Positions 1-7,607 of a DNA stretch of 7,607 nt are shown one piece after another; position 1 is the first letter of the stretch; the number at the start of each line of letters is the position of its first letter. A model generated the notes under the pieces. It saw nothing but the letters and a program-made list of their open reading frames with translations. It had not been told where the DNA came from and ran no database searches. The stretch lies in NCBI GenBank assembly GCA_001799195.1, contig MGSU01000214.1, positions 1 to 7,607 on the forward strand, written 5' to 3'. Both the position numbers and the translations under genes were made by a program. Source of the DNA: Deltaproteobacteria bacterium RIFOXYA12_FULL_61_11 (lineage in GTDB: Bacteria > Bdellovibrionota_F > JAHFAK01 > YA12-FULL-61-11).

Positions 1-369
1 CGGAACGACCATGCGTTCGATCATCAAAGGTTTGAGGTACTTCTCCCCCATAGCGAGCAAGATGGGACGGTCGAGGACGAAGTAGAACCAGGCGCAGGCC
101 CCGGCCAGGAACACCCCCAGCACTGCGGGCTGGAACTTGAACAGGAGACCTCCCCCCCGCAGGAAGGCCAGACCTCCGAGTACGAGCACGAGCAGGAACG
201 AAAGGATGGTCAGAGAGTCGAGTTCTCCGTAACGGACCAGGGAATAGACGAGTTCGGCCACGGCCATGAGCATGGCCGCGAGAATGGCGCGCCGCGGGGT
301 GGAGGTGGAATCCACGATCGCGAAGACCAGGACCGGGAGGATGCCGACGAGCAGGAGTTCCAAGCTCAT
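1..369 (-). CDS. YciB/IspZ-like inner-membrane protein, N-terminal part (cut by window edge)
   Basis: The 123 visible codons encode a very hydrophobic protein beginning MSLELLLVGILPVLVF. Hydrophobic stretches lie at about residues 3-18, 27-43, 54-70 and 82-98, separated by short basic or polar turns. The segment VRYGELDSLTILSFLLVLV followed by LGGLAF resembles E. coli YciB (septation protein A / IspZ family) in its second and third membrane segments. The later DRPILLAMGEKYL resembles the KKPLIQRMLGKEL region of YciB. YciB is a polytopic inner-membrane protein linked to envelope integrity and division. The ATG overlaps the stop of the upstream glycosylase gene (ATGA), which decides the start and implies translational coupling. 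The C-terminus lies beyond base 1. The family call is from remembered similarity; a generic small membrane protein of another family remains possible. Confidence 0.6.
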   Translation of the reverse strand, partial: MSLELLLVGILPVLVFAIVDSTSTPRRAILAAMLMAVAELVYSLVRYGELDSLTILSFLLVLVLGGLAFLRGGGLLFKFQPAVLGVFLAGACAWFYFVLDRPILLAMGEKYLKPLMIERMVVP

Positions 370-965
370 GCCGACCTCTTGGCCAGGAGTTGCACTTCCC
401 GATGGCGGAAACAGTCGCAAAGGTGGTCGTTGATGAGGCCAGTGGCCTGGAGATGGGAATAGAGCACCGTGGATCCGAGAAAGCGGAACCCCCGGGCCTT
501 GAGGTCTTTGGCCAGGGCATCCGAGACCGCACTCGTACTGGGACAGTCGCGCTGATCTCGCCACGCGTTGACGATCGGCGTCCCGCCGACGAAACGCCAC
601 AGGTAGGCGGCGAAACTGCCGAAGGCCTCGGCTACCTCGAGAAAACGGCCCGCATTGTGGATCGCAGCACTGAGTTTGGCTCGGTTGCGAATGAGTCCCT
701 GATCCTGCAACAAGGAGGTGAGTTGGGTCTCGTCGTAGCCGGCGACCACGACAGGGTCGAAGTGGGCAAAAGCCTTGCGGTAGTTTTCTCGCTTGCGGAG
801 CACCGTATACCAGGATAACCCGGCCTGGGAGGATTCCAACACCAGAAACTCGAACATCTTTCTATCGTCGTGTACCGGCACCCCCCATTCCCGGTCGTGA
901 TAGTCCACGTAGTCCTGTTTGCGGAGATCGACCCAGGCGCATCGACGGAGCGAAAGATCGGGCAT
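366..965 (-). CDS. tag: DNA-3-methyladenine glycosylase I (Tag)
   Basis: This encodes a 199-residue base-excision repair enzyme that removes 3-methyladenine from alkylated DNA in the cytoplasm. It aligns over its full length with E. coli Tag (187 residues): RCAWVDL near the N-terminus, YHDREWGVP, the LESSQAGLSW segment with the expected catalytic-pocket Glu, KRENYRKAF, STSAVSDALAKDLKARGF and LINDHLCDC. The four zinc ligands of Tag appear conserved: Cys9, His23, His181 and Cys185. The start is set at MPDLSLRRCAW because homology begins there. An in-frame ATG 39 bases upstream (1004) would add 13 residues unlike the family and has no clear ribosome binding site. The Shine-Dalgarno for the chosen start is also weak. 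The stop overlaps the ATG of the downstream membrane-protein gene. No key residue is missing, so it is probably functional. Confidence 0.95.
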   Translation of the reverse strand: MPDLSLRRCAWVDLRKQDYVDYHDREWGVPVHDDRKMFEFLVLESSQAGLSWYTVLRKRENYRKAFAHFDPVVVAGYDETQLTSLLQDQGLIRNRAKLSAAIHNAGRFLEVAEAFGSFAAYLWRFVGGTPIVNAWRDQRDCPSTSAVSDALAKDLKARGFRFLGSTVLYSHLQATGLINDHLCDCFRHREVQLLAKRSA

Positions 966-994
966 GGCACGACCGATAGTGCGACATCGCGGGT

Positions 995-1023
995 ATCCTG
1001 CCATGCCGTAGCGCGGCTGGCAA
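995..1023 (-). promoter_or_regulatory. Weak candidate promoter for tag
   Basis: On the minus strand TTGCCA (1018-1023, five of six matches to the -35 consensus) lies 17 bases from CAGGAT (995-1000, three of six matches to the -10, including the A2 and T6 positions). A transcript from here would start near 988, downstream of the alternative tag ATG at 1004, which supports the start at 965. The -10 is poor, and read-through from the oxidoreductase operon 117 bases upstream is equally possible. Confidence 0.28.
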
Positions 1024-1082
1024 GGCTAACCCCACTGGATCAATCCCTCTGGGTCCAAGGCCTCGAGAGGGTCGATTGCCGC

Positions 1083-2420
1083 TCAGGGGGGAGTGCTTGT
1101 GCCGGGGTTCTCGGGTCGGTCGAGGAACTGCCCGATCGCGCGGCAGGCTCCCTCTGCCAAGCGCACCGCCTCATCCAGGCTTCGATCCGAGGGGAAGACC
1201 TGTGCGGTGCAGGCCACGAACAGCGAGTCCCAACCAGGGCGCAAGGGGGGGATGCGGGAGTAGTGGCCTCTTTTCATCACGCTATGGGCTTCCCGCACCC
1301 GGGAGAGGGTGGCCTGTTCGACCGTGCAATTCCGGAAATGGGGCAATACCGTGGCGAGACCTTCGGACAGGACTTCGAGCACGCGTTCGTCCGGGGCAGA
1401 GGCCAGGGGATCGTTCGGATCGAGATACCGGGCCGCGTATACGATATGCCGTCCGGCATAGTCTTCGGGCGGGAGGAGGTTGGTATGTTCGACCACCACG
1501 TTGGGAAGTGTCCCGGGTGCGAGTACCGAAATCCAGTAATGGGGCGAGAGCTGCCGGTCGAGGAAGAAGCAGGCGCAGACCACGCTTCGATGAGGGGTGG
1601 CGCAGAGCCGCTGTTGCAGGAGCGGGAACCGAGGACAGAGCGAAGCCAGGGTCGTGCTCGGTACGCTCGAAAGAACGGCCTGGTGGTCGATACTGCTCTG
1701 GGCGAGTTGGAGCCGAGTGCCGCCACGTCCTCCGGGTTCGAGACCGAGAACGGGACAGCGCACACGCAGGCGGACGCCGAGCCGGCGCAGTTCCTTGAGG
1801 AGGGCTTCGAGCAGCCGGCCGAAACCGCCGACCGGGTAACCAAGGACCTCGTACCAGCCGAGAGGGCCGCGAGAACGGGCTCGCACCAGCAATCGGCCGA
1901 CCATCCAGGCGGCAGAAATGTCCTGCCAATGGGTTCCGAATTTGGCTTCGAGCTGAGGGAGCCAGAAGCGATCGGTTGTGGCGGGTCCCATGGTCGCGGT
2001 CAACAGGGCCCTGGCCGAGCACTGGTCGAAGAGGGGATGATTGCCGGTGATCCGCAGGGCCGCGGTGGCGAGGGACGCTCGCACGGCGGCCAGAGGGGGA
2101 AGGAGGTTCCCGAGCACGAGCTCGAGGGGGGTGTTTAAGGGATATGAGCGACCCTCGGACCAGCACGCCGAGTTGCTCCGGTACCAGCGGACAGGTACGG
2201 GGGTGGGGAAGGAATCTAACAGGGTCAAGAGGCGATGATCGGTACGGAAGAGGTGGTGATAGAACCGCTCGACCCCGTTCTGCTGCAGGACCGCGAGTTG
2301 ACCACCGGGTTCTCCGCATTGCTCGTACACGGTGACCTCGTGTCCCTCCCGGGCCAGGAACAGCGCCGAGGTCAAACCGCACAAGCCTGCTCCGATCACC
2401 GCAACGTCGGACCTGTTCAT
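1083..2420 (-). CDS. FAD-dependent oxidoreductase, COG1232 (HemY/amine oxidase-like) family
   Basis: The 445-residue protein begins MNRSDVAVIGAGLCGLTSAL, a Rossmann beta-alpha-beta with GxGxxG at residues 10-15, the ribose-binding acidic residue Glu33 (VYEQ) and the GG doublet at 39-40. Next comes GVERFYHHLFRTDHRLL, common in the COG1232 branch of NAD(P)/FAD proteins. Near the C-terminus (about 400-429) LFVACTAQVFPSDRSLDEAV matches the FAD-binding end of that branch. This branch is related to protoporphyrinogen oxidase and flavin monoamine oxidases; many members sit in polysaccharide clusters with unknown substrates. No signal peptide or membrane helix is evident, so it is probably cytoplasmic. 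The start is fixed by the family N-terminus and by an ATGA overlap with the radical SAM stop. An in-frame extension back to 2957 only shadows the upstream gene. True protoporphyrinogen oxidase activity is unlikely, as no haem genes are nearby. Family confidence is high; substrate unknown. Confidence 0.88.
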   Translation of the reverse strand: MNRSDVAVIGAGLCGLTSALFLAREGHEVTVYEQCGEPGGQLAVLQQNGVERFYHHLFRTDHRLLTLLDSFPTPVPVRWYRSNSACWSEGRSYPLNTPLELVLGNLLPPLAAVRASLATAALRITGNHPLFDQCSARALLTATMGPATTDRFWLPQLEAKFGTHWQDISAAWMVGRLLVRARSRGPLGWYEVLGYPVGGFGRLLEALLKELRRLGVRLRVRCPVLGLEPGGRGGTRLQLAQSSIDHQAVLSSVPSTTLASLCPRFPLLQQRLCATPHRSVVCACFFLDRQLSPHYWISVLAPGTLPNVVVEHTNLLPPEDYAGRHIVYAARYLDPNDPLASAPDERVLEVLSEGLATVLPHFRNCTVEQATLSRVREAHSVMKRGHYSRIPPLRPGWDSLFVACTAQVFPSDRSLDEAVRLAEGACRAIGQFLDRPENPGTSTPP

Positions 2421-3580
2421 CGCAGGGCAGCTCGAGAGGGCAGAGGTAGCCGGGACCATCGTGGGGAGAGCAGGGTCAACTCGGTCTGGCAGTCCCAGCA
2501 GCAGGCTCGACAGTGTCGTAGGGCTTGTCTGAGGACGTTCGTGTTCCGGGAGCGCCAGAGCGCTGTGGGAGAGGGAAAGGCCTGTCCCAATGCAAGCCGG
2601 CGGCGCAAGAACAGCGGCCAACAGGGGTAGGCAGTACCATCCAGGTCGATGGTCAGACTGTTCCAGGGAGCGAGGCAGGGGATGGCGAGGAAGCCTTGTT
2701 CCGCGAAGTCGCTCACGGTGTCGAAGAAAGCCGGGGAATTGTCCACGGGGAAACCGTGGTCGCGTCCGTCGAGGGCGTGGGCTCGCGCCTGCCGGGCAGC
2801 AGGAGGGGTGAGCCCCAATCGGAAGGGGGCGGTAGCTGGAGCCTGATCCTCGGGGAGGAGATGCAGGGGGTTGAGCGCAAAGAAATCCACCTCGAGTTTT
2901 TTGGCGAGGGAGAACAGGGCCGGGAGTTCCTCCACGTTCTCGTTCCTGAGCACACAAGCGAGGCCGAGGAGGAGATGCTTGCGACGTTTGGTTTTGCCGA
3001 GGATCGACAAGGCCTCGAGAGCCGCCGCGTGGGCCCCCGATCGTTTGCGGAACAGATCCACGACTTCAGCAGAAGGAGAGTCCAGGGATATGCCGAGCTC
3101 GTCCAGACCTGCTTCGACGAGTTTCTCTGCCAACGTCGGACTCAAGCCGATACCCGTACTTGCCAGACGGGTGTAGAGACCCCGCTCGTGGGCTGCCGCG
3201 ACGAGTTCGGGTAAGAACGGGTTGGTCAGAGGTTCGCCTCCGGTCAGGGCTACCGAGGGAGTACCCAGCGTTACCAATCCGTCGAGCACGCGTGACCAAC
3301 CCTTCAGGTCGAGTGGTATGCCATGAGGACGGCCGGGGAGCGGGCACATGGCACATGCACAGGGACACGTCTCTGCGACGACCAGGGTGGCCATGAAGGG
3401 ACCTGGAGGAACCCTGGCATACTTCCGGGCCAAGGGATACCGGCATAAGCGTAGACCCTGGCCGAGGAGTTCGAGCAGTCGGCCCTCTCTCAGTCGGCGA
3501 CGCAGGATGGCCAGGTATTTTGCTCGAGGCCTCGAGCACTGCATCGGCCTACCGGCTTGGGAACGACAAAGGGAAGACAT
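2417..3580 (-). CDS. Radical SAM protein with C-terminal SPASM/twitch-type cysteine region
   Basis: This is a 387-residue protein. Residues 72-79 read CPCACAMC, the CX3CX2C motif that holds the S-adenosylmethionine-cleaving 4Fe-4S cluster. TGGEP at 113-117 (SAM amino-group binding) and ISLD at about 164-167 follow, as expected in a radical SAM barrel. The C-terminal part has CLAPWNSLTIDLDGTAYPC (Cys302-x12-Gly315-x4-Cys320) and then CRACCWDC (Cys357, 360, 361, 364), typical of a SPASM or shorter twitch domain holding auxiliary Fe-S clusters. Such enzymes modify peptides, sugars or cofactors; the substrate here is unknown. A basic helical stretch of about 60 residues precedes the barrel. The start at 3580 was chosen because GAGGAG lies six bases upstream; the later ATG at 3544 lacks a good site, and extension to 3778 runs into the promoter region. 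It is the first gene of a two-gene operon, with its stop overlapping the next ATG. Confidence 0.9.
   Translation of the reverse strand: MSSLCRSQAGRPMQCSRPRAKYLAILRRRLREGRLLELLGQGLRLCRYPLARKYARVPPGPFMATLVVAETCPCACAMCPLPGRPHGIPLDLKGWSRVLDGLVTLGTPSVALTGGEPLTNPFLPELVAAAHERGLYTRLASTGIGLSPTLAEKLVEAGLDELGISLDSPSAEVVDLFRKRSGAHAAALEALSILGKTKRRKHLLLGLACVLRNENVEELPALFSLAKKLEVDFFALNPLHLLPEDQAPATAPFRLGLTPPAARQARAHALDGRDHGFPVDNSPAFFDTVSDFAEQGFLAIPCLAPWNSLTIDLDGTAYPCWPLFLRRRLALGQAFPSPTALWRSRNTNVLRQALRHCRACCWDCQTELTLLSPRWSRLPLPSRAALR
3521..3538. repeat. 18-bp perfect palindrome inside the radical SAM 5' coding region
   Basis: TGCTCGAGGCCTCGAGCA is identical to its own reverse complement over all 18 bases and contains two CTCGAG hexamers. 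It lies 43-60 bases into the radical SAM gene, encoding part of CSRPRA. In the mRNA it could pair end to end only as an intermolecular duplex or a tight cruciform-like structure; as DNA it could bind a symmetric dimer. Confidence 0.9.
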
Positions 3581-3586
3581 ACTGGA

Positions 3587-3592
3587 CTCCTC
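3587..3592 (-). promoter_or_regulatory. Ribosome binding site that decides the radical SAM start
   Basis: GAGGAG on the minus strand lies six bases before the ATG at 3580. It is the best Shine-Dalgarno match among the in-frame starts of this gene, and it lies within the short leader expected from the promoter at 3606-3634. Confidence 0.75.
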
Positions 3593-3605
3593 GCGGTGCG
3601 GCGGC

Positions 3606-3634
3606 ATTGTAGGGTACCCCGAGGTCAGCGGCAA
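3606..3634 (-). promoter_or_regulatory. Candidate sigma70-type promoter for the radical SAM/FAD operon
   Basis: On the minus strand TTGCCG (3629-3634, four of six) is separated by exactly 17 bases from TACAAT (3606-3611, five of six). A start near 3599 would give a leader of about 19 bases that still contains the GAGGAG ribosome binding site. The position fits the chosen start. The -35 is only moderate, which could mean activator dependence. Confidence 0.5.
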
Positions 3635-3672
3635 TGCATTTCCGGTCTCCGACCGACCGAAGATCCGAGGAA

Positions 3673-3709
3673 GGGAACGGTCCGTTCCAGTTCCGACGAG
3701 CCCGTTCCC
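3673..3709. repeat. Operator-like inverted repeat cluster between divergent promoters
   Basis: GGAACGG and CCGTTCC form a 15-bp inverted repeat around a single T (3674-3688). A third copy, CCGTTCC, follows at 3702-3708. The outer copies extend to GGGAACGG (3673-3680) and CCGTTCCC (3702-3709), an exact 8-bp inverted repeat. The cluster lies upstream of both predicted promoters: 38 bases from the rightward -35 and 39 bases from the leftward -35. That is typical for a regulator serving both directions. The binding protein is not identifiable, and no regulator gene lies in the window. Confidence 0.55.
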
Positions 3710-3746
3710 AGAAGAATCGCTTCTCGCTCCACTGGTCTCGAGAACG

Positions 3747-3775
3747 TTTACAGTCCCAATGGATGTGTCTATAAT
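3747..3775 (+). promoter_or_regulatory. Strong sigma70-type promoter for the sulfatase-glycosyltransferase operon
   Basis: TTTACA (3747-3752, five of six) is followed after exactly 17 bases by a perfect TATAAT (3770-3775). Transcription would start near 3782, giving a leader of about 45 bases before the ATG at 3827. The local sequence is clearly more AT-rich than its surroundings. The palindrome TCTCGAGA (3736-3743) abuts the -35 on its upstream side, and CCAATTGG (3788-3795) lies just after the predicted start, both possible operator half-sites. Confidence 0.8.
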
Positions 3776-3793
3776 CATAAACGATTGCCAATT

Positions 3794-3831
3794 GGTTCAT
3801 GCATCGTAGGTATTACAACGAGGTTCATGCA
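3794..3831 (+). repeat. 10-bp direct repeat spanning the sulfatase start codon
   Basis: GGTTCATGCA occurs at 3794-3803 and again at 3822-3831, 28 bases apart, within the predicted leader. The second copy contains the chosen ATG (3827). The first contains an out-of-frame ATG (3799) that opens a short overlapping reading frame of 38 codons. Confidence 0.6.
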
Positions 3832-6577
3832 ATACCCTATGTGGACCGCTCGAAGCGTCCTTTTCATTACTGGATGCCTTGTCCTACCACATATCGTCCC
3901 CCTTGCCATGGGTAAACCACCCCCTCAGGACGAGGATCGCTACGTCCAGGAATGTACCCGAGAGTACCCCCATCTCGACAGCAGGGGGCTTGCGAAGAAA
4001 TTGGAAATCCATGGCGCTGCCGAGGTGCTGTGGTGCTTTGCGAACTATCCGAAGAAACGGACTCAGGATGAATTCCTGGGCTCGCTCTACGATGTCCTCG
4101 AACACGTCACCGATACCGAGAACGTACTCGACCTTTCCTGGGAATTAACCCAGACTACGGTCATCAAGGCCGAGTTGAAGGAACAGTTGCAACTTATCCT
4201 CGCTCAGCATTGTGTTTCCCTGGACCAACCAGTTGAAGCCCAGAGGACCCTCGAGTTGTGTGTCTCCGACCTGACCGTCACCGCCACGTTCTGCCTGCGT
4301 GACCTCATGCGGCTCTACCGGCAGCAGAGTCCTCGGCTGCGGCGGCTGGTCAATATCGTTGAAACCCAACTCGAACTGACCAACGATTCCCAGGGATATT
4401 GGCACCTCGCGGAAGAGAGTTTGTTCCTCGATGACCCGAGCCGCCAGATAGTATATTTGATGAACCTCCTCGCAGGTGGGGATTTCAGTGAAGATCAACT
4501 CGATGAACTCCTCGGAGTGTACCCATCGGAATTCTCCGATAACCGTTATGCACATTTTCTCGCGACCCTCGCCGCGTCTCCCAAGCTCGACGGGGGACAG
4601 CGCAGCCGTATCAGGATCGCGCAATCCCAGCTCAACTGGCTGAAGGGCAAGCTGGAGCATTCCTTGGCCTTGCTCGCGGAGGCGGCCACCTTGGACCCGG
4701 GTAATCTATCCATCCTCTTGATGTTGCATGAACGTGCGCGTTTCTCTCCGCCTCTCACGCGCTGGACCAGGACGCCTTTGAAACTCCAGCTTCTCCATTT
4801 CCAAGTGCCTGACCAAGAAGAGTTGGCCATGTTTCGGGATATCAGTCTGATCCACCCCGGTAACAGCAGCAGGTTGTACGAACGTTGTCTCGAACTCGTT
4901 CCTGCGCATACCGGGTGCCTCACCGACGGTCTCCACGTCCTGCTGCGCAGTGGCCCTCTAGAACGATTGAACAAGCTTCGTCGCCTGCTGGTCCAGGCCT
5001 TGGCGCATCCATCCCCTGCTCGGCTGTCCTTGCTCGACTCTCTCCTCGATACCGGGGACTATGAGCTCCTCCCCCAGGTCGAGAAGGTCCTATCCGAGCC
5101 CACGCCCGCAGAGATGTTGCGCCTGTGGTTGCTTGCGTCCCTGGGAAGTCGACCGGAACGGGCGGAGTTCTGGAGTGCTCGACTGCTCGCACTGCACCAG
5201 AACAGCAAAGAGGCCTCCCTCTGCCGGGCGCAGCTCGTTGTTCCACAACCCGGAACCGAGGAGGACGAGCAAGAGTTCCTGCCTTCGTACCGCCTCCCTC
5301 GCCCCCATGTCGTCTTCGTGACTATCGATGCCCAGAATTACCGGCATTTGGGATGCTATGGCTATCCCCGAGCGCTCACCCCCAACCTCGATGCCCTGGC
5401 CAAGAAGTCCATGGTGTATGAAAGAGCCTACTCGGCAGCACCCCATACTCTTCACTCCGGTCTCGTGTTCACCACTGGGCTCTATCTCCATACCCTGTCC
5501 AATGATCCCTTCGATAAGCATCTCGAGGAACATTTCACCACCATGGCCGAGTATTTCCAGGGGGCGGGTTATACCACCGTGGCAGTGGTCGGGAACGATT
5601 TCTACCGCCGTGGATCAGGGTTCGAACAAGGCTTCGATCAATACTACGACAACCTCGAGAACGTGAGCGATCGCACCCTCGCGTCCCTTGCTCTCCATCG
5701 GTTCGCCCTCGCCACGTGCGAACGACCGACCTTTCTCTGGCTCCACCTTTTTGGTCCTCATGGCCCCTATACCCCCCCCTTTGATGTCAAGGTCAAGGCC
5801 TCCCTCTATCCGACATGGTCGTGGCCTTCCCCGCTCTTCCAACCCTTTCCCGACGTGAGTACAGCCAAGGCAGCCTTAGGACCGGGTCTTTTCGACGGAC
5901 TCCATCTCGCTCCCACCTGGTATTTCGACCGGTACGATGAGGAAGTTCAGGCCACAGATCAGGCGCTCGCACCCTTACTCGATCGGATTCTGAACAAAGA
6001 GGATACCCTACTCGTGGTCACCGCCGACCACGGAGAGTCCATGGGCGAGCATCGGAGCCTTTTTGCCCACGACACCTGCCTGTACGACGAAGAGATCAGA
6101 GTTCCTCTCATCGTCTTCGACCCCCGTTCCACGACGATCGGACGGGTCGTGCGACCGGTGAGTACCATCGATATCCTGCCGACTCTCCTCGAGCGGGTCG
6201 GTATCCAACACGAAGCGCTGCACGGTCAGCATCTCGGCGCGTCTCGAGAACGGGTCATGCCGATCCTCGCCCAGCGCTTCACTTGGGATAAGGGTTTCAA
6301 TTTCAGCATGATGCTCGTGGACCGCGAGCGAAAAATGATTCTCTCGGAGTATTTGACGCCCCAACGGAGCAAGGGGGAGCTGTATGCTCTACGCGATGAT
6401 CCTTACGAACAGCGAAACCTCTGGGACACCGAGTCCCGGATGACGGCAACCTTGACCGATCGAGCGCGGGACGTGTTACGGAGTGCCAGGCAATCCAATG
6501 CCTCTGACGGAGCCGAGGTCCCTCAGGATTTTTCCGCGCGTCTCGAAAAGTTACGTTTCCTCGGTTATCTCGAATGA
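3827..6577 (+). CDS. Exported TPR-like/sulfatase-fold fusion protein
   Basis: The 916-residue protein starts with a signal-like segment: Arg9, a hydrophobic core 10-27, and a possible cleavage after Gly29 (A-M-G). A lipobox-like ITGC (14-17) is a weaker alternative. Residues about 35-470 are helical and leucine-rich, with TPR-like stretches (for example 264-292, ending EAATLDPGN), and suit protein binding. Residues about 492-800 are a sulfatase/alkaline-phosphatase fold (PF00884): VVFVTID with metal ligand Asp501, LGCYGYPRALTPNLDAL, APHTLHSG with candidate nucleophile Thr541, FGPHGPY with His645, VVTADHGESMGEH with Asp734/His735, and His748. The tail GELYALRDDPYEQRNL and LRFLGYLE is typical of the family. 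Such enzymes hydrolyse sulfate or phosphate esters or transfer phospho-groups in the envelope. Several motif positions deviate, so activity is uncertain. The start is supported by the promoter and signal peptide; AGG lies only three bases upstream, an unusually tight spacing. ATG 3839 is an alternative start. Confidence 0.85.
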   Translation: MQYPMWTARSVLFITGCLVLPHIVPLAMGKPPPQDEDRYVQECTREYPHLDSRGLAKKLEIHGAAEVLWCFANYPKKRTQDEFLGSLYDVLEHVTDTENVLDLSWELTQTTVIKAELKEQLQLILAQHCVSLDQPVEAQRTLELCVSDLTVTATFCLRDLMRLYRQQSPRLRRLVNIVETQLELTNDSQGYWHLAEESLFLDDPSRQIVYLMNLLAGGDFSEDQLDELLGVYPSEFSDNRYAHFLATLAASPKLDGGQRSRIRIAQSQLNWLKGKLEHSLALLAEAATLDPGNLSILLMLHERARFSPPLTRWTRTPLKLQLLHFQVPDQEELAMFRDISLIHPGNSSRLYERCLELVPAHTGCLTDGLHVLLRSGPLERLNKLRRLLVQALAHPSPARLSLLDSLLDTGDYELLPQVEKVLSEPTPAEMLRLWLLASLGSRPERAEFWSARLLALHQNSKEASLCRAQLVVPQPGTEEDEQEFLPSYRLPRPHVVFVTIDAQNYRHLGCYGYPRALTPNLDALAKKSMVYERAYSAAPHTLHSGLVFTTGLYLHTLSNDPFDKHLEEHFTTMAEYFQGAGYTTVAVVGNDFYRRGSGFEQGFDQYYDNLENVSDRTLASLALHRFALATCERPTFLWLHLFGPHGPYTPPFDVKVKASLYPTWSWPSPLFQPFPDVSTAKAALGPGLFDGLHLAPTWYFDRYDEEVQATDQALAPLLDRILNKEDTLLVVTADHGESMGEHRSLFAHDTCLYDEEIRVPLIVFDPRSTTIGRVVRPVSTIDILPTLLERVGIQHEALHGQHLGASRERVMPILAQRFTWDKGFNFSMMLVDRERKMILSEYLTPQRSKGELYALRDDPYEQRNLWDTESRMTATLTDRARDVLRSARQSNASDGAEVPQDFSARLEKLRFLGYLE

Positions 6578-6606
6578 AGACATGATGGTATTGGGGGATA
6601 GTGGGC

Positions 6607-6636
6607 TTGACAAGGAGGCAGAGCAACGGGGATAAA
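6607..6636 (+). promoter_or_regulatory. Possible internal promoter before the glycosyltransferase
   Basis: A perfect TTGACA (6607-6612) is followed after 18 bases by GATAAA (6631-6636, four of six, lacking the final T). A transcript would begin close to the ATG at 6643 and be nearly leaderless. The same gap holds a good AAGGAGG (6612-6618) with no start codon at a usable distance. No terminator hairpin is visible between the sulfatase stop and this gene, so read-through from the 3747 promoter is the default. Confidence 0.3.
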
Positions 6637-6642
6637 CCGGAC

Positions 6643-7572
6643 ATGATGGATGTTCCAGAGAGCAGTCGATCGGTGCGGCCACCCGACCTCGAGGTGATCG
6701 TCCCCGTGCATGACGAACCCCTGGACGTGGTGCTGGAGACGGTCGACGGTGTCCTCGCGGCCCTCGCAGAGAAGCATGTCGAGGTCCTCGTGGTCGACGA
6801 TGGTTCCCGGCCCGACCTCGGTCTGACCTTGCTCGAAGGTCGATCGAAGGTGCGTCTGCTGCGGCATCCCCTGAACCGGGGGTATGGCAGTGCGATCAAG
6901 ACCGGCATCCTGTCCGGCACGGCGCCGTTGTTGGCCATCATCGACGCCGACGGCACCTATCCACCCGAGGAGTTGCCCCGCCTGCTCAACGCCCTCCCGG
7001 GTCATGCCCTGTGCATCGGTGTACGGGCTCCGGGGGAGAAGTCTATTCCCTGGCCGCGGCGCTGGCCCAAGCGAGCGCTCAACTCCTTGGCCGGCTACTT
7101 CTCGGGCCGATCGATCCCGGACCTCAACAGCGGCTTGCGCGTGTTCACCCGCGACCTCGCCGCCGAGCTGTGGACCATACTCCCCGAGGGCTTCAGCCTC
7201 ACCTCCTCGATGACCCTCGGCGCCCTGCTCGCCGGGCACCGGGTCGCCGAGGTCCCCATCGCCTACCGGCAGCGCCGGGGGCGTTCTTCGATCAAGCCGC
7301 TGCGCGACACTGTGCGGTTCGCCTTCCTGATCCTCCATCTGGGTTCCATGTTCTCGCCGATGAAGTTGTTCCTGCCGCCGGCCGCCGCGGTATTCCTCCT
7401 CGGCCTCGGGAAGGGCTTGTTGTATGATTACCTGCTCGTCGGCCGGGTCGGCATGCTGGCCGCGACCTTCCTCCTGGGCGCGCTCCAGTTGTTCATGCTG
7501 GGGATGCTCGGGGAGTTGATCGTGCATGAACGGCGCTGGTCCAAGAGGAGGCCGCCGTGGCCCGGGGCCTGA
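6643..7572 (+). CDS. Polyprenyl-phosphate glycosyltransferase, family 2 (DPM1/GtrB-like)
   Basis: The 309-residue protein has a GT-A family 2 domain: LEVIVPVHDEP (16-26), VVDDGSR with Asp52/Asp53, LNRGYGSAIKTGI (77-89), the metal-binding DAD at 101-103 followed by GTYPPEELP, LNSGLRVFTRDL (161-172), and RRGRSSIKP (211-219). This order is that of dolichyl/polyprenyl-phosphate mannose or glucose synthases, which move a sugar from a nucleotide donor to a lipid phosphate at the inner face of the membrane. Two hydrophobic helices follow (about 241-263 and 269-293), as in GtrB and ArnC types, and then a basic tail. The start is ambiguous: ATG 6643 (GGGGA ten bases upstream) fits the domain best, while TTG 6607 (GGGGGA eight bases upstream) and GTG 6601 would add 12-14 non-homologous residues. 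It lies 65 bases after the sulfatase stop and overlaps the next gene by 16 bases. The sugar is unknown. Confidence 0.9.
   Translation: MMDVPESSRSVRPPDLEVIVPVHDEPLDVVLETVDGVLAALAEKHVEVLVVDDGSRPDLGLTLLEGRSKVRLLRHPLNRGYGSAIKTGILSGTAPLLAIIDADGTYPPEELPRLLNALPGHALCIGVRAPGEKSIPWPRRWPKRALNSLAGYFSGRSIPDLNSGLRVFTRDLAAELWTILPEGFSLTSSMTLGALLAGHRVAEVPIAYRQRRGRSSIKPLRDTVRFAFLILHLGSMFSPMKLFLPPAAAVFLLGLGKGLLYDYLLVGRVGMLAATFLLGALQLFMLGMLGELIVHERRWSKRRPPWPGA
7547..7551 (+). promoter_or_regulatory. Strong ribosome binding site for the last, partial gene
   Basis: GGAGG lies five bases before a GTG at 7557, inside the 3' end of the glycosyltransferase gene. This nearly ideal site is the main evidence that a coupled gene begins here. 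Confidence 0.7.
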
Positions 7573-7607
7573 AGGTCCTGTTCCTGCAGAACTTGTTGCA
7601 TTGCCAA
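7557..7607 (+). CDS. 5' end of a further operon gene (17 codons, GTG start)
   Basis: Only MARGLKVLFLQNLLHCQ is visible. The start overlaps the glycosyltransferase by 16 bases and has a strong ribosome binding site, so it is very likely cotranslated. KVLFLQN is a hydrophobic first beta strand, as at the start of B12-binding radical SAM proteins or GT-B glycosyltransferases. Seventeen residues cannot decide between these, and no function is assigned. Confidence 0.6.
   Translation, partial: MARGLKVLFLQNLLHCQ

Follow-up and report, generated by a model that had tools for sequence, protein, structure and literature searches.

Three-component polyprenyl-phosphate glycosylation systems comprise a synthase of the GtrB or UbiA type, a flippase and a GT-C protein, and the paper describing them does not mention an FAD enzyme (PMC11127046; 0 occurrences of 'FAD'). 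The locus analyzed here carries a synthase-like gene opposite a pair of redox genes. The window, that is, the whole stretch of DNA that was analyzed, is a complete contig of 7,607 bases from a 4.64 Mb metagenome-assembled genome (87% complete). A sequence-only reading had suggested that its radical SAM/SPASM gene and FAD-dependent oxidoreductase gene form a two-enzyme module modifying a sugar, lipid or peptide of the envelope. Relatives of each gene separately adjoin lipid-sugar-loading genes, so both probably help to build a cell-surface sugar. The explanation that we prefer, with about an even chance of being correct, is that they are separate redox enzymes serving a polyprenyl-phosphate-linked envelope-glycan pathway and are operon neighbors in this lineage.

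The minus strand of the window carries the radical SAM/SPASM gene (2417-3580; 387 aa, intact, ATG start), the FAD gene of the COG1232 type (1083-2420; 445 aa, intact), the gene for the DNA-3-methyladenine glycosylase Tag downstream of the FAD gene (366-965), and an IspA-like septation protein gene at the contig start, which cuts it. On the plus strand lie the gene for an exported sulfatase-fold protein with a hydrophobic N-terminus (3827-6577; 916 aa) and a GT2 gene for a polyprenyl-phosphate glycosyltransferase-like protein of the DPM1/AglJ/GtrB type with C-terminal hydrophobic helices (6643-7572, the start being picked by eye among 6601, 6643 and 6646). A further gene of the GT2 operon (VARGLKVLFLQNLLHCQ; GTG start, 7557-7607, plus strand) overlaps the GT2 end and is cut by the contig end; no contig overlapping the end of the window at 7607 was found in the window's genome using assembly overlap. 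The 246-base gap separating the two operons contains promoter-like sites pointing both ways. A sigma-70-like site, TTTACA-17-TATAAT (3747-3775, plus strand), matches 11/12 positions and faces the divergent operon, and a weak one, TTGCCG-17-TACAAT (3606-3634, minus strand), faces the radical SAM-FAD operon and matches 9/12, with 3 sites in the window against 1.2 expected by chance. The description of a lipid-linked sugar transferase opposite the pair across a control region thus agrees with a GT2 that has C-terminal membrane helices and with promoter-like sites on both strands. The palindrome CTCGAG occurs 15 times in the window (1-7607) compared with 4.5 expected; across 69 kb of the genome no other six-base palindrome is as common, so this is a genome-wide bias and no local feature.

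The stop of the radical SAM gene and the start of the FAD gene share ATGA at 2417-2420 (minus strand), as had been read. A good Shine-Dalgarno sequence, GAGGAG, stands six bases 5' of the ATG of the radical SAM gene. None is present in the sequence upstream of the FAD gene (CTCTGCCCTCTCGAGCTGCCCTGCG), so coupling to the radical SAM gene is favored; judged from these signals, translational coupling is plausible, and the FAD gene seems to be translated through its partner. The added claim that the two enzymes are made in a fixed ratio went further than the sequence allows, and an NTGA overlap is common in the family. Such an overlap with the upstream ORF was possible in up to 39/111 FAD loci, with various partners, this count being an upper bound because any fitting in-frame NTG was accepted, and with the downstream ORF in 14/111; the arrangement is therefore routine for FAD family members.

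NF005560/PRK07233 is a family of FAD-dependent oxidoreductases without an assigned function. The FAD protein matches this NCBIfam model over residues 5-429 of 445 with 332.6 bits (cut-off 252), and it also matches PF01266 and PF01593. The GxGxxG and other conserved residues are kept (G10, G12, G15, E33, G39, and G40), as are the near-invariant family residues Y54, H55, H56, D61, K160, W172, R180, E311, and R413, and the protein forms a long branch with 29-36% identity to the closest relatives listed. The nearest fold to its AlphaFold model (pLDDT 92.7) is phytoene desaturase (Z 34.1 over 429 residues), followed by protoporphyrinogen oxidase (Z 32.9), amine oxidases (Z about 30), and UDP-galactopyranose mutase (Z 29.5). 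Phytoene desaturase acts on isoprenoids, and the predicted fold may also be compatible with a UDP-galactopyranose mutase; these ranks are too close for the substrate to be named, and a common fold proves no function. Hydroxysqualene dehydroxylase, HpnE, was rejected as an identity for the FAD protein, which scored 64.7 bits against the TIGR03467 cut-off of 283.

The radical SAM protein matches PF04055 (63.9 bits, 2.6e-17) and the SPASM domain PF13186 (26.1 bits, 1e-5), both over cut-off. It has the motif C72-x3-C76-x2-C79, GGEP at 114-117, and C-terminal cluster cysteines at 302, 320, 357, 360, 361, and 364. None of the curated NCBIfam equivalogs tried (PqqE, NirJ, AhbD, mycofactocin maturase, and HpnH) was over cut-off. 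Both proteins of the pair belong to already known families. For the radical SAM protein, a peptide-pattern search of 84,980 genomes turned up no close relative, nor did 58 other genomes contain one at E<=1e-40; three relatives at 26-32% identity were found among 386 genomes and one (32%, E 1.1e-39) among 50 FAD-bearing genomes, and a repeat of the search around another center returned the same matches. The genome set includes just one genome of the same class as the window's genome. With about 135 matches in 4.64 Mb, the radical SAM domain looks unusually frequent in the window's genome, and several of the matches lie in tight clusters (C336, C16, C41, and C73).

To describe the surroundings of the FAD family, 114 loci were used, drawn from 31/290 sampled genomes and from at least 80 named loci of a small-alignment scan, from which very close relatives could be absent. 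Neighbor densities were obtained by six-frame reading using profiles seeded only with window proteins, and the regions within 4 kb and at 4-8 kb were compared. For window-type GT2 genes, the density around the FAD relatives falls from 7.5 per 100 kb in the inner 4 kb to 1.4 at 4-8 kb (p=3e-8). The most frequent gene immediately upstream encodes a flippase-like membrane protein (PF03706/TIGR00374; within 1 kb in 36/114 loci), and a GT2 gene and a GT-C-like gene lie within 4 kb in 42/114 and 24/114 loci, respectively. These three counts are somewhat inflated because the queries were partly drawn from the loci themselves, whereas the GT2 densities, based on window-protein profiles, are free of that inflation. 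In the window's genome, PF03706 has one match over cut-off, on another contig.

Individual loci give a more specific hint. One operon (L109) contains a decaprenyl-phosphate phosphoribosyltransferase gene (over cut-off) with genes for an SDR, a GT2, two PF03706-like proteins and the FAD enzyme, and another locus (L046) contains family-checked DprE1-like, DprE2-like, GT2, and FAD genes. By similarity, FAD relatives at L101 and L148 also lie near DprE1-like/DprE2-like genes. From these four loci, a link of the FAD family to lipid-linked pentofuranoses is possible. CDP-glucose genes are also present at the Yersinia and Pseudomonas FAD loci. At five Anaerolineaceae loci (L124, L125, L131, L134, and L138), inspection by eye showed the FAD gene with a PF03706-like neighbor and then a dnaA-like gene.

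The relatives of the radical SAM protein have partly similar surroundings. The gene for the closest full-length relative (L210; 31%) overlaps a DPM-like GT2 gene by ATGA and adjoins WecB, and it comes from the same metagenome-assembled genome as the L109 operon. A GT2 gene lies within 1.4 kb in 5/5 of the closest relatives, two of which share a family, and within 4 kb in 8/22 relatives overall and 3/17 outside the closest five, a split that was made after seeing the data. Taken together, the 22 relatives show no significant enrichment of GT2 genes (p=0.35).

We looked for the pair itself from both sides, in samples from which a rare or very recent pair could escape. No radical SAM gene lies within 500 bp of an FAD relative among the 114 loci listed, and the density of window-type radical SAM genes around them is the same within 4 kb as at 4-8 kb (0.9 vs 0.9 per 100 kb). 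Conversely, the 4 kb on either side of the 22 radical SAM relatives contain no FAD relative; one lies at 5.3 kb. Co-occurrence of both families across genomes is weak (3/6, p=0.016; 2/5, p=0.09 with one genus counted once). The recurrent two-enzyme module that had been proposed was therefore not recovered as an adjacent pair outside the window's genome in either sample, and the radical SAM-FAD pair is probably local to this lineage. This is the outcome that the sequence-only reading had named as evidence against itself: no adjacent pair turned up beyond the window's genome and each partner travels with other genes, although those genes belong to one functional class. Likewise, the glycan role in its envelope proposal is supported by GT2, PF03706 and GT-C genes near the FAD relatives and by GT2 genes near the closest radical SAM relatives, while the two-enzyme part is not.

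Given this local distribution, the two genes could be chance operon neighbors with unrelated functions, the radical SAM gene happening to precede the FAD gene in a genome rich in radical SAM genes. With about 135 such domains in the genome, a radical SAM neighbor is unsurprising, and the next gene, Tag, is housekeeping. However, the relatives of either gene tend, independently, to lie close to GT2 genes, a GT2 lies opposite, and the apparent translation of the FAD gene via its partner also speaks against this account, which we regard as a serious but somewhat unlikely candidate. The ATGA coupling and the lack of a second ribosome-binding site would also fit a dedicated tailoring route, in which the radical SAM enzyme and then the FAD enzyme act on one substrate, a lipid-linked sugar or the isoprenoid carrier. 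Members of both families are associated with lipid-linked glycan loci, and the solved SPASM-type relatives of the radical SAM protein include the sugar-acting cytosylglucuronate decarboxylase; however, the absence of an adjacent pair from the 114 FAD-centered and 22 radical SAM-centered loci makes such a route unlikely.

A peptide substrate, which the sequence-only reading had also allowed, would imply RiPP or peptide-cofactor maturation by a PqqE- or mycofactocin-like radical SAM enzyme with a flavin partner. PqqE is indeed both the best curated model (7.5e-22) and the best solved-structure match for the radical SAM protein, but its score is far under cut-off (77.7 vs 381 bits), no plausible precursor ORF is evident in the intergenic region of the window, and no RiPP context was seen among the relatives examined, so we consider this reading very improbable. 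The RiPP and PqqE readings, together with a hopanoid reading of the pair (HpnE/HpnH), were set aside because no model was over cut-off.

The facing sulfatase-fold protein was described earlier as an exported sulfatase; export and the sulfatase fold agree with our analysis, but the formylglycine-forming Cys/Ser is absent. The active-site stretch is AAPHTLHSG (residues 537-545, window 5435-5461), in which Thr541 (5447-5449) aligns with the nucleophile Cys/Ser of solved sulfatases, and the Arg of the motif Cys/Ser-x-Pro-x-Arg is also absent. Two sulfatase-fold relatives likewise read P-x-T, one adjoining an FAD gene at L051 and the other close to a radical SAM gene at L245. Based on these residues, the protein encoded at 3827-6577 looks like a member of a Thr-nucleophile branch, and formylglycine chemistry is unlikely.

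In the preferred reading of two separate redox enzymes in one glycan pathway, the GT2 at 6643-7572 would charge polyprenyl phosphate with a sugar, and the FAD enzyme would oxidize, reduce or isomerize the lipid-linked sugar or the isoprenoid carrier at the membrane. A further radical modification of the sugar or lipid could come from the radical SAM enzyme, and the sulfatase-fold protein may act on the exported product. Several observations are against a shared glycan pathway: the GT2 gene and the pair lie on different strands, the DNA glycosylase Tag is downstream of the FAD gene, PF03706 and GT-C genes are absent from the window, the FAD protein sits on a long branch, and the radical SAM-side GT2 result has p=0.35.

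The family-level result is more useful than the pair: polyprenyl-phosphate sugar synthases and flippase-like proteins are repeated neighbors of the FAD family. Members were named from Yersinia, Pseudomonas, Streptomyces, Chloroflexi, and Acidobacteria, and this recurrence makes the function testable in tractable laboratory species. The literature searched, which leaves out most subscription journals, contained no paper on the radical SAM-FAD pair and none that connects PRK07233 with polyprenyl-phosphate sugar systems. If true, coupled flavin/radical tailoring would be chemistry so far undescribed for lipid-linked glycans in that literature; the proposal that it acts on a polyprenyl-phosphate-linked sugar or carrier, with PRK07233 as an extra component of polyprenyl-phosphate glycosylation systems across many phyla, is a doubtful one.

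In comparison with known systems, the FAD model shares its fold with the group of phytoene desaturase, protoporphyrinogen oxidase, and UDP-galactopyranose mutase at 12-18% identity, and the FAD protein scores beneath the cut-offs of the curated HpnE and CrtI-type desaturase models. In domain order and cysteine pattern, the radical SAM protein agrees with radical SAM/SPASM proteins encoded in glycan clusters (L210, L082/L262, L083/L263, and L245), with L210, L082, and L083 being 25-31% identical along its length; those genes lie beside or near DPM-like GT2 genes without an adjoining FAD gene, in contrast to the window. Similarly, the partner of NF005560 relatives is a flippase-like or GT2 gene, whereas that of the window's FAD gene is a radical SAM gene. 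From the three-component set, the window has only the synthase-like GT2, and its contig ends inside the operon; the FAD relatives, however, adjoin the same three kinds of component as the described systems, in which the FAD enzyme would be an extra member.
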